The notes under the pieces were generated by a model. The model was not told the DNA's origin. It did no database searches and saw only the letters and a program-made list of their open reading frames with translations. The position numbers were made by a program, and so were the translations under genes. Positions 10,787 through 12,300 of a DNA stretch of 39,653 nt are shown here, in pieces (positions within the stretch are counted from its first letter, which is position 1; each line of letters opens with the position of its first letter). The stretch comes from a virus, in IMG/VR virus record IMGVR_UViG_3300025154_000225, positions 1 to 39,653 of that record; one strand, written 5' to 3'.

Positions 10787-10815
10787 TTGAAATTGTTTTT
10801 GCTGGGTGGTATAAT
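10787..10815 (+). promoter_or_regulatory. Promoter P1 of structured RNA 1
   Basis: TTGAAA (10787-10792), 17 bp spacer ending GGGTGG, TATAAT (10810-10815). The spacer end and -10 (GGTGGTATAATA) are identical to P3. Unlike P2 and P3, no ACCGTAAACGGT-like operator is seen at the -35. Confidence 0.8.
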
Positions 10816-10821
10816 ACATCA

Positions 10822-11300
10822 ACAGATCCCACCACGCCTCTGTCTAAATCAGGCGCACCATGGTGGGACGGTAAATAAGCGGAGGCGCAAAGAGTGACGC
10901 TATATCTAAGACCGGGAAGTGAGTCCGTGGCAATTCGGACATAGAGTCTAGTGACTAGTGCCCGGCAATTGCAAGGTTTGATTCCTTGCCCGCTTAACGG
11001 TTATGGGAACGAAAGAACCCTATTTGATGGACATTATTGGTCAGACATGATAGGTCTTGATCGTACCTTAAAGCGACACTACAGACGGTTGATATTAAGA
11101 GGTTTTAGCATACCGGAGTAGTAAATAAGCGAATAAAAATCTCATAAACACCCAAGAGATGCAGTATACGGCATTGATGGTGACAAAACTCTCCAACGTA
11201 TCTTATCTTTAAAGTGTGGGTGTGTAAGCACAGCGAACCTTGACGTACACCATGGCGCGCACTTTAAAAATAGGGTATGTGTGGGGAGTTTTGTTTTGAG
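10822..11300 (+). ncRNA. Structured RNA 1 (about 480 nt): 5' pseudoknot, tRNA-like domain, closing stem-terminator
   Basis: No coding frame fits. From 5' to 3': stem TCCCACCA (10827-10834) with TGGTGGGA (10861-10868) encloses CGCCTC (10835-10840), which pairs downstream with GAGGCG (10882-10887), a pseudoknot. CGCCT can instead pair with AGGCG at 10851-10855. A 7 bp stem TAAGCGG (10876-10882)/CCGCTTA (10990-10996) lies next to a T-arm-like hairpin CAAGG-TTTGATT-CCTTG and encloses a branched domain closed by CCGGG/CCCGG. The pseudoknot and the 7 bp stem share 10882, so they may exclude each other at that base. The 3' end is a 12 bp stem ACAAAACTCTCC (11183-11194)/GGGGAGTTTTGT (11283-11294) with a T-rich tail, containing further nested stems. 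Not a known tmRNA or riboswitch that I recognise. Confidence 0.7.
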
Positions 11301-11415: not shown

Positions 11416-11447
11416 CCTGCAAACGGTATAAATATACCGTAAACGGT
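11416..11447. promoter_or_regulatory. Operator pair at the Tad2 promoter
   Basis: ACCGTAAACGGT (11436-11447) overlaps the first base of the -35 box. A degenerate copy (CCTGCAAACGGT, 11416-11427) lies exactly 20 bp upstream. The arrangement matches that at 11877-11908. Confidence 0.65.
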
Positions 11448-11475
11448 TGAATTTTTATTTGCTTAGTAGTATAAT
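11447..11475 (+). promoter_or_regulatory. Promoter P2 of the Tad2-like gene
   Basis: TTGAAT (11447-11452), 17 bp spacer, TATAAT (11470-11475). The leader is short, about 28 nt to the GTG start. Confidence 0.8.
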
Positions 11476-11510: not shown

Positions 11511-11849
11511 GTGTTACCGAAGAAATACCCCTGCAAACCTGATATTTTCGAGGCTACATATGATGATGCTGATGGTGAAACGGAAAGCACCCAAAAGACG
11601 GGACTGAACTTCGGTCAGGCGCTGGATGCTCTGAAAAAAGGTGACTGTATATCAAGGAAAGGTTGGAACGGCAAAAATATGCACGTTAGTATGCTTAGTC
11701 TATATACTGCCGACAATGTTCCGATTGATAACAAATGTCTCGTTCTATTTAATGTCAACTGTAAATACAACACATGGGTTCCGAGCATAACCGATCTGCT
11801 TGCCGATGACTGGGAAGTAGTCAACCAACAACACACAAACTCTCTCTAA
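11511..11849 (+). CDS. tad2: DUF2829 protein, Tad2-like anti-Thoeris candidate
   Basis: 112 residues from GTG 11511, with TGGAGGG 7 nt upstream. After a charged, roughly 30-residue N-terminal extension comes a DUF2829 domain: NFGQALDALKKG (33-44), RKGWNGKNMHV (49-59) and WVPSITDLLADDWEVV (89-104). The hallmark GWNGK and the terminal LLA-DDW are present. Members of this family (Tad2 of phage SPO1 and relatives) sequester the cyclic-ADPR-type signal of Thoeris defence; that role is taken from the family. The middle is divergent (KCLVLFNVNCKYN), so ligand range may differ. It stands on the opposite strand to its surroundings, has its own repressor-like operator and terminator, and lies between two structured RNAs. 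Confidence 0.8.
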   Translation: MLPKKYPCKPDIFEATYDDADGETESTQKTGLNFGQALDALKKGDCISRKGWNGKNMHVSMLSLYTADNVPIDNKCLVLFNVNCKYNTWVPSITDLLADDWEVVNQQHTNSL

Positions 11850-11876: not shown

Positions 11877-11908
11877 ACTGTATACAGTATTCTTCTACCG
11901 TAAACAGT
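11877..11908. promoter_or_regulatory. Operator pair at the RNA 2 promoter
   Basis: ACTGTATACAGT (11877-11888, a perfect palindrome) and ACCGTAAACAGT (11897-11908) are spaced 20 bp start to start. The second overlaps the first base of the -35, exactly as in P2. Confidence 0.7.
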
Positions 11909-11936
11909 TGCAACACAATTAACTCGGTGGTATAAT
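11908..11936 (+). promoter_or_regulatory. Promoter P3 of structured RNA 2
   Basis: TTGCAA (11908-11913), 17 bp spacer ending CGGTGG, TATAAT (11931-11936). Confidence 0.8.
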
Positions 11937-11942
11937 ATTCAC

Positions 11943-12120
11943 ATCGAACCGCTACGCCTCTGTCTTCGCGTGATATGCGTACATGGCGGTTACTCCGATA
12001 ATCTGAGGCGAAAGGAAGTGAATACCTCCGTGTGGAATTAGCATTGTTATTGAATCTAGTAGTAGTGTATTCCGTTGAAAAAATTTAGCCTTTAGATGGA
12101 CGCGAGAGCGTTCTTTTTTT
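11943..12120 (+). ncRNA. Structured RNA 2 (about 180 nt), 5' domain homologous to RNA 1
   Basis: The stem AACCGCTA (11947-11954)/TGGCGGTT (11984-11991) differs from RNA 1 at several positions but keeps pairing, with one G-T. CGCCTC (11955-11960) again pairs with GAGGCG (12005-12010) outside it, giving the same pseudoknot. CGCCTCTGTCT is identical in both RNAs. Downstream GGAAT...ATTCC forms a further stem, and the hairpin GGACGC-gaga-GCGTTC with T7 (12098-12120) terminates. Read-through would carry the tRNA at 12225. There is no open frame of note. Confidence 0.65.
12098..12120 (+). terminator. Terminator of RNA 2
   Basis: GGACGC-gaga-GCGTTC stem (one wobble) followed by TTTTTTT. Confidence 0.85.
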
Positions 12121-12224: not shown

Positions 12225-12300
12225 TGTGAAGTAACTCAGTTGGTAGAGTGGTTGACTATTAATCAGCTTGTCGTAGGTTCGAGACCTACCTTCACAGCCA
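12225..12300 (+). tRNA. tRNA-Asn with unusual anticodon AUU
   Basis: A full cloverleaf with encoded CCA. Acceptor TGTGAAG (12225-12231)/CTTCACA (12290-12296), D-stem ACTC/GAGT, anticodon stem GTTGA/TCAGC with loop CTATTAA, variable TTGTC, T-stem GTAGG/CCTAC with loop TTCGAGA, discriminator G, CCA 12298-12300. Anticodon ATT at 12258-12260. Bacterial tRNA-Asn normally has GUU, and the loop differs from the usual CTGTTAA by one G-to-A change. All stems are perfect apart from one G-T pair, so it is not a decayed gene. Confidence 0.92.

Follow-up and report, generated by a model that had tools for sequence, protein, structure and literature searches.

The analyzed stretch of viral DNA (the window; all 39,653 nucleotides, positions 1 to 39,653 of IMG/VR record IMGVR_UViG_3300025154_000225) encodes two small RNAs, RNA 1 and RNA 2, each headed by a hairpin that, judging by fold and sequence, almost certainly belongs to the abiF type of antitoxin RNA. 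The abiF RNA (Rfam RF03085) is the antitoxin RNA of AbiF, a HEPN ribonuclease toxin of the Abi_2 family. This toxin is inhibited by RNA and stems from a lineage ancestral to Cas13. We directly observe the abiF fold, its kinship to toxin-linked antitoxins, the absence of a toxin gene, a Tad2 neighbor and the loss in relatives of a pseudoknot that an earlier note had proposed. We consider it probable (roughly 65%) that the two RNAs are solitary antitoxin mimics which neutralize the AbiF of the host. Coordinates are given in Table 1.

Table 1. Features of the two abiF-type RNAs and the gene between them (positions in the window)
Feature	Position	Strand	Remarks
RNA 1 promoter, sigma-70-type	10787..10815	+	TTGAAA-17-TATAAT with extended TG; 11/12 consensus matches
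RNA 1 5' leader AACAGA	10821..10826	+	AACA common in toxin-linked abiF RNAs; AACAGA identical in Cytobacillus AbiF RNA
abiF-type antitoxin hairpin 1	10827..10868	+	RF03085 27.2 bits; R1 32.9 bits, E 2.6e-6; compensatory changes
Hairpin 1 outer stem	10827-10834/10861-10868	+	TCCCACCA/TGGTGGGA
Hairpin 1 inner stem	10835-10837/10853-10855	+	CGC/GCG; extendable to CGCCT/AGGCG (AGGCG, 10851-10855)
Hairpin 1 3' bulge	10856-10860	+	
GAGGCG, claimed pseudoknot partner	10882..10887	+	start of next RNA module; not kept beside hairpin
RNA 1 body	10875..11300	+	tRNA-like/structured module and long terminator hairpin; putative 3' end; from sequence, fold z-score -3.4 and homologous module in G051 and G054
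Tad2-like gene promoter	11447..11475	+	
Tad2-like anti-Thoeris protein, between both abiF RNAs	11511..11849	+	PF11195 and 8wje matches; orthologues in G051 and G054
RNA 2 promoter	11908..11936	+	TTGCAA-17-TATAAT with extended TG
abiF-type antitoxin hairpin 2	11947..11991	+	RF03085 15.5 bits; R1 16.6 bits, E 0.029; orthologues in G051 and G054
Hairpin 2 outer stem	11947-11954/11984-11991	+	AACCGCTA/TGGCGGTT
Hairpin 2 inner stem	11955-11957/11977-11979	+	CGC/GCG; short 3' bulge TACA
RNA 2 first terminator	12098..12113	+	
tRNA-Asn (anticodon ATT), 3' of RNA 2	12225..12300	+	ARAGORN, Rfam; strong terminator hairpin behind, to ~12372

Both RNAs begin with an abiF-type hairpin

An Rfam scan of the window at the gathering score returned tRNA as the only match, while a permissive scan gave one weak, exactly placed abiF RNA match at 10828-10868 (27.2 bits). 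In a search of the window record alone with RF03085, RNA 1 scored 27.2 bits (E 1.7e-4) and RNA 2 15.5 bits (E 0.135). Both copies lie below the gathering score of 37 bits, and we therefore refer to them as abiF-type and not as full Rfam members. The two motifs of phiC2, which carries the AbiF system described in PMC12373285, score 37.6 and 19.5 bits, the same range as in the window, and real systems thus include sub-threshold scores. For a second covariance model, R1, bacterial genome contigs were scanned for the motif, and 41 RNAs with an adjoining AbiF gene were combined with the phiC2 motif; neither window copy was included. When R1 was run on the window with filters off, its best match was RNA 1 (32.9 bits, E 2.6e-6) and its next best RNA 2 (16.6 bits, E 0.029), followed by a match of 9.9 bits; the R1 E-values are rough. 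On its own, the RNA 2 match carries little weight (E 0.029 to 0.135). Relatives of the window were located through a neighboring FtsK-like gene and a promoter-plus-motif pattern, and the RNA 2 orthologues in two of them, G051 (L196) and G054 (L338), scored 24.8 and 18.5 bits, respectively.

In the abiF fold, an outer stem encloses an unpaired A, an inner stem of three pairs and a loop that opens with CUCU, and a bulge follows on the 3' side, ahead of the closing strand of the outer stem. Both window copies have the two stems, the unpaired A and the bulge, with seven of seven outer and three of three inner pairs formed, and both carry the invariant core ANGC-YUCU ... GCN' (N and N' paired) as ACGCCUCU...GCG. 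CGCCTCTGTC occurs exactly at the RNA 1 and RNA 2 sites and nowhere else; together with the R1 ranking, this places the resemblance of the two sites beyond coincidence. The one inner-stem pair that the search pattern leaves free covaries among the toxin-linked RNAs (CG in 23, AU in 12, UA in 6 and a mismatch in 1). We also compared 20 RNAs drawn from the window, its relatives, isolated phages and toxin-linked loci, counting pairs by script in a fixed register: two-sided changes occur at six of the seven outer-stem pairs, and pairing fails in 6 of 200 cells. The earlier note had pointed out that the outer stem differs on both sides between RNA 1 and RNA 2 and is still paired; this holds, and the retention of the stem through two-sided changes, also across unrelated phages, bears out the selection on RNA structure that the note had deduced. 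In Clostridioides difficile, the abiF RNA RCd22 neutralizes AbiF in trans, a broken stem abolishes neutralization and a swapped stem with pairing kept still works (PMC12373285). The natural stem changes in abiF-type RNAs follow the pattern seen with these RCd22 variants. The CA-rich 3' bulge (CAMMNN) agrees in RNA 1 (CACCAU) and in the G051 orthologue of RNA 2 (CACAC) but deviates in RNA 2 itself (UACAU), which, with its most conserved bulge positions relaxed, could be a degenerate copy or be tuned to another AbiF.

Further features place RNA 1 close to antitoxins that accompany a toxin. Of 50 toxin-linked abiF RNAs, 40 have the sequence AACA, which the Rfam model does not include, no more than 14 nt ahead of the hairpin, versus 5 of 51 background windows. 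The nearest matches to RNA 1 are RNAs on Cytobacillus and Alicyclobacillus plasmids (AACAGAACCCACCACGCCTCT...GGTGGG and AACAGTGCCCACCACGCCTCT...GTGGGC, respectively) that lie immediately 5' of a gene for an "Abi family protein" and have the AACAG leader and CCCACCACGCCTCT in common with it; the counterpart in RNA 1 is AACAGATCCCACCACGCCTCT...GGTGGG. A strong extended -10 promoter stands just 5' of the hairpin in both RNA 1 and RNA 2, and the promoter-to-hairpin distance of RNA 1 is that of toxin-linked abiF RNAs. In leader, promoter spacing and CCCACC stem, RNA 1 is like the AbiF antitoxins of Bacillota. FtsK and endolysin relatives suggest a Bacillota host.

Relatives keep the hairpin and lose the proposed pseudoknot

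The earlier note had read the same sequences as a conserved pseudoknot with two exclusive pairings, in which the segment CGCCTC (10835-10840 in RNA 1 and 11955-11960 in RNA 2) pairs with GAGGCG downstream (at 12005-12010 in RNA 2), and CGCCT pairs alternatively with AGGCG in RNA 1. The elements are all present as described and every pairing is possible; in addition, GAGGCG lies at a nearly equal distance in both window copies. The CGCCTC/GAGGCG helix is common to the two window copies, as the note had it, but is lost in homologues. In the RNA 2 orthologues, the hairpin is kept and CGCCTC is unchanged, while GAGGCG is replaced by GATACG (GAUACG in the RNA) in G051 and by GAGACG in G054. In the RNA 1 orthologues, a tRNA gene takes its place: tRNA-Asn directly behind the hairpin in G051, and tRNA-Arg behind two tandem hairpins in G054. 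The pairing was thus lost in both relatives while the element itself was retained, an outcome that the note had named as refuting its reading. Since CGCCTC never changes in homologues, nothing compensates for the altered GAGGCG; the conservation of CGCCTC is explained by its place in the abiF core (ANGCCUCU). In RNA 1, GAGGCG falls at the beginning of another, separate RNA module further downstream, in which relatives have GTGGCG or GTGGTG, away from the hairpin.

The alternative partner does not suggest a two-state switch either, as CGCC/GGCG corresponds to the inner stem in the abiF fold, with CGC/GCG formed constitutively, and the Rfam abiF model has no helix corresponding to the pseudoknot. 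An H-type pseudoknot CGCCTC-GAGGCG, exclusive with CGCCT-AGGCG and acting as an RNA switch, is thus largely refuted, and we give it hardly any credence. The pattern ACGCCTCTGTC-N-GAGGCG was also searched in viral contigs and occurred in 61 stretches; it was accompanied by the hairpin only in near-identical relatives (L001, L020, L041 and L049), and the rest fit chance.

The phage RNAs lack an AbiF gene

A gene with an Abi_2 domain (PF07751) beside the RNA would mark an AbiF toxin-antitoxin locus. No match to this domain was found in the window record, in its relatives G001, G002, G051, G052 and G054, or in the complete genomes of nine isolated phages that bear the motif, with phiC2 as the positive control. 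A toxin that has diverged strongly could lack a PF07751 match, and part of the genome may be missing from the window record. Among the 50 viral records first tested, Abi_2 was found in one. An AbiF gene adjoined the abiF motif in 46 of 64 bacterial cases versus 1 of 48 viral cases (Fisher p = 2e-15; equal stem criteria, at least 900 nt of downstream sequence required), the two sets having been obtained with slightly different patterns and the viral set including some related contigs (50 distinct flanks). Bacterial motifs without AbiF probably represent, in some cases, prophages or chance matches. The window accordingly has the arrangement of phage pseudo-ToxI, an antitoxin RNA in a phage genome without its toxin.

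A Tad2-like gene lies between the two RNAs

The gene between RNA 1 and RNA 2 encodes a Tad2-like protein (PF11195, E 2.8e-20; SPO1 Tad2 structure 8wje, E 2.8e-13). A Tad2-domain gene occupies the same place in G051 and G054, and the order abiF RNA, Tad2, abiF RNA is found in three of three genomes. A Tad2 gene flanked by both abiF RNAs suggests that the stretch is an anti-defense island, and its kept position is independent support for this assignment. It also bears on the idea that, through its RNA, the phage directs or exploits the AbiF of the host, for example by arming it against competing phages, and does not block it. AbiF does act as an RNA-protein complex, and prophages carry AbiF systems; however, known abiF RNAs repress or neutralize the toxin (PMC12373285), the Tad2 neighbor points to counter-defense, and we regard exploitation as very unlikely. 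In G054, a Tad2-like domain is fused to an N-terminal RyR domain (L338:404-979, minus strand). Elsewhere in the window we noted a small protein with a domain like the C-terminal domain of phage ProQ (PF24203; 6813-7148, minus strand), possibly an RNA-binding partner of the phage RNAs, and a perfect 44-nt inverted repeat with a 14-nt loop (700-801).

tRNA and tRNA-like bodies follow the hairpins

Behind its hairpin, RNA 1 continues into a module (10875-11000) with a TAAGCGG...CCGCTTA closing stem and a T-arm-like GCAAGGTTTGATTCCTTGC, in which a multi-helix domain replaces the anticodon arm. It has no convincing Rfam match, and homologues of it are found in G051 and G054, separate from the abiF hairpin. 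The anticodon of the window tRNA-Asn, ATT, is unusual for Asn; in the G051 relative it is GTT. The solitary abiF RNAs of S-CREM1, S-SZBM1 and RHEph21 likewise have a tRNA-Asn nearby.

Such arrangements raise the possibility that the hairpin acts in cis on the tRNA or tRNA-like RNA that follows, as an attenuator, a processing signal or a 5' stabilizer. Transcripts with a tRNA-Asn, tRNA-Arg or tRNA-like body do begin with the hairpin in the window, G051 and G054, and tRNAs lie within about 130 nt of the motif in S-CREM1, S-SZBM1 and RHEph21. A tRNA less than 300 nt away was found, however, for only 6 of 56 viral motifs (about 2 expected), and we rejected tRNA adjacency as a general rule on this weak excess. 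A role in stability would also leave unexplained both the invariant ANGCCUCU...GCN core in common with toxin-linked RNAs and the match of leader and stem to Bacillota AbiF antitoxins, and we consider a cis-acting function improbable.

Solitary abiF RNAs occur in diverse phages

Solitary abiF RNAs are present in isolated phages of Aeromonas, Acinetobacter (Acj61), Salicola, Synechococcus, Rhizobium, Roseobacter, Mycobacterium and others. Another viral record, IMGVR_UViG_3300035561_000139, has two abiF hairpins about 260 nt apart (L327:2086-2394) and a weaker third match elsewhere; a search of this record for an Abi_2 gene found none. A relative of AbiF is encoded by 488 plasmid records. The genes beside other solitary abiF RNAs were mostly core phage genes, with no enrichment for anti-defense functions. 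These RNAs thus sit among structural and replication genes and not in recognized anti-defense islands, which counts against a counter-defense role.

The breadth of occurrence bears on whether the RNAs are leftover or anti-addiction antitoxins, kept by a phage that once carried or met a full AbiF system, with no counter-defense part in infection. Type III-like systems are known on prophages (phiC2), and the RNA would remain by itself once the toxin gene was lost. However, solitary abiF RNAs occur in very different phages (T7-like phages of Aeromonas and Roseobacter, T4-like Acj61 and cyanophages), which speaks against such an origin. In addition, the stems are maintained by compensatory change, the core is invariant and relatives have extra copies, some of them in tandem, all of which argues for continuing selection. 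We judge a leftover antitoxin to be unlikely.

We also considered phage sk1 (L064) as a known anti-AbiF locus that might carry an abiF RNA; according to a reference cited in PMC12737573, it has a DNA region that confers protection from AbiF on phage 712. This candidate was rejected: the abiF motif is absent from both sk1 and 712, and no recognizable motif was found upstream of a lactococcal AbiF-family gene (L344). The lactococcal case may therefore use another mechanism.

A probable decoy for host AbiF

We favor a role of the two RNAs as decoys. During infection, RNA 1 and RNA 2 would be transcribed from their strong promoters and would carry the hairpin at the 5' end or close to it. They would probably bind host AbiF in trans and keep it silent in the same way as the antitoxin encoded by the host. 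Should the host antitoxin run short, the phage RNAs would still silence AbiF, abortive infection would fail and the phage would be protected. The tRNA and tRNA-like bodies behind the hairpin would be superfluous for a decoy alone, a point against this role. A more speculative proposal, which we consider unlikely, treats hairpin and cargo as one device: the hairpin would disarm AbiF in trans, and the tRNA (Asn or Arg) or tRNA-like body would replace or imitate a tRNA cut by freed HEPN nuclease, forming a widespread, modular phage RNA answer to the AbiF-type ancestors of Cas13.

To our knowledge, antitoxin RNA mimicry is known mainly from phiTE. If phages commonly carry the AbiF antitoxin RNA alone, RNA mimicry would be a broad counter-defense strategy that can be read from sequence with an existing Rfam family. 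The isolated phages of Aeromonas and Acinetobacter, the cyanophages and the mycobacteriophages offer testable cases, and promoter-driven antitoxin RNAs next to genes such as tad2 would provide a rule for locating anti-defense islands.

Comparison with known systems

The window RNAs have in common with the abiF RNA of C. difficile (RCd22; PMC12373285) the outer stem, the unpaired A, the inner stem of 3 bp, the loop start GCCUCU and the 3' bulge, and RNA 1 also the AACA leader and promoter spacing. In contrast to RF03085 members, they lack an AbiF gene and score below threshold, their loop measures 15 to 19 nt from CUCU to the inner stem (about 11 in most), and their hairpin heads a tRNA or tRNA-like transcript instead of a terminator and toxin gene. 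The gene between them belongs to the Tad2 family of anti-Thoeris proteins; unlike RNA 1 and RNA 2, Tad2 is a protein inhibitor, and of another defense system.

The abiF sRNA of S-CREM1 is likewise a solitary abiF RNA in a lytic phage, located between tRNA-Asn and tRNA-Gly; its Rfam match was noted and a function in infection suggested in the passages considered here, which draw no anti-defense role from it (PMC9964418). Earlier proposals may exist in preprints or subscription papers. The pseudo-ToxI of phiTE, which protects the phage by antitoxin mimicry acting on ToxN (PMC3475682), is also a phage-encoded copy of an RNA antitoxin without its toxin, and tandem copies are found in our relative G054. 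Pseudo-ToxI mimics ToxI, from the ToxIN system, whose toxin family and RNA are both unrelated to those of AbiF; the protective effect of pseudo-ToxI was shown by experiment, whereas that of the window RNAs is predicted. Racr RNA anti-CRISPRs, solitary CRISPR-repeat mimics in viral genomes (PMC10651486), differ from the window RNAs in that they mimic CRISPR repeats and target Cas proteins; like the window RNAs, they are solitary viral copies of an RNA element that is bound by a defense protein.
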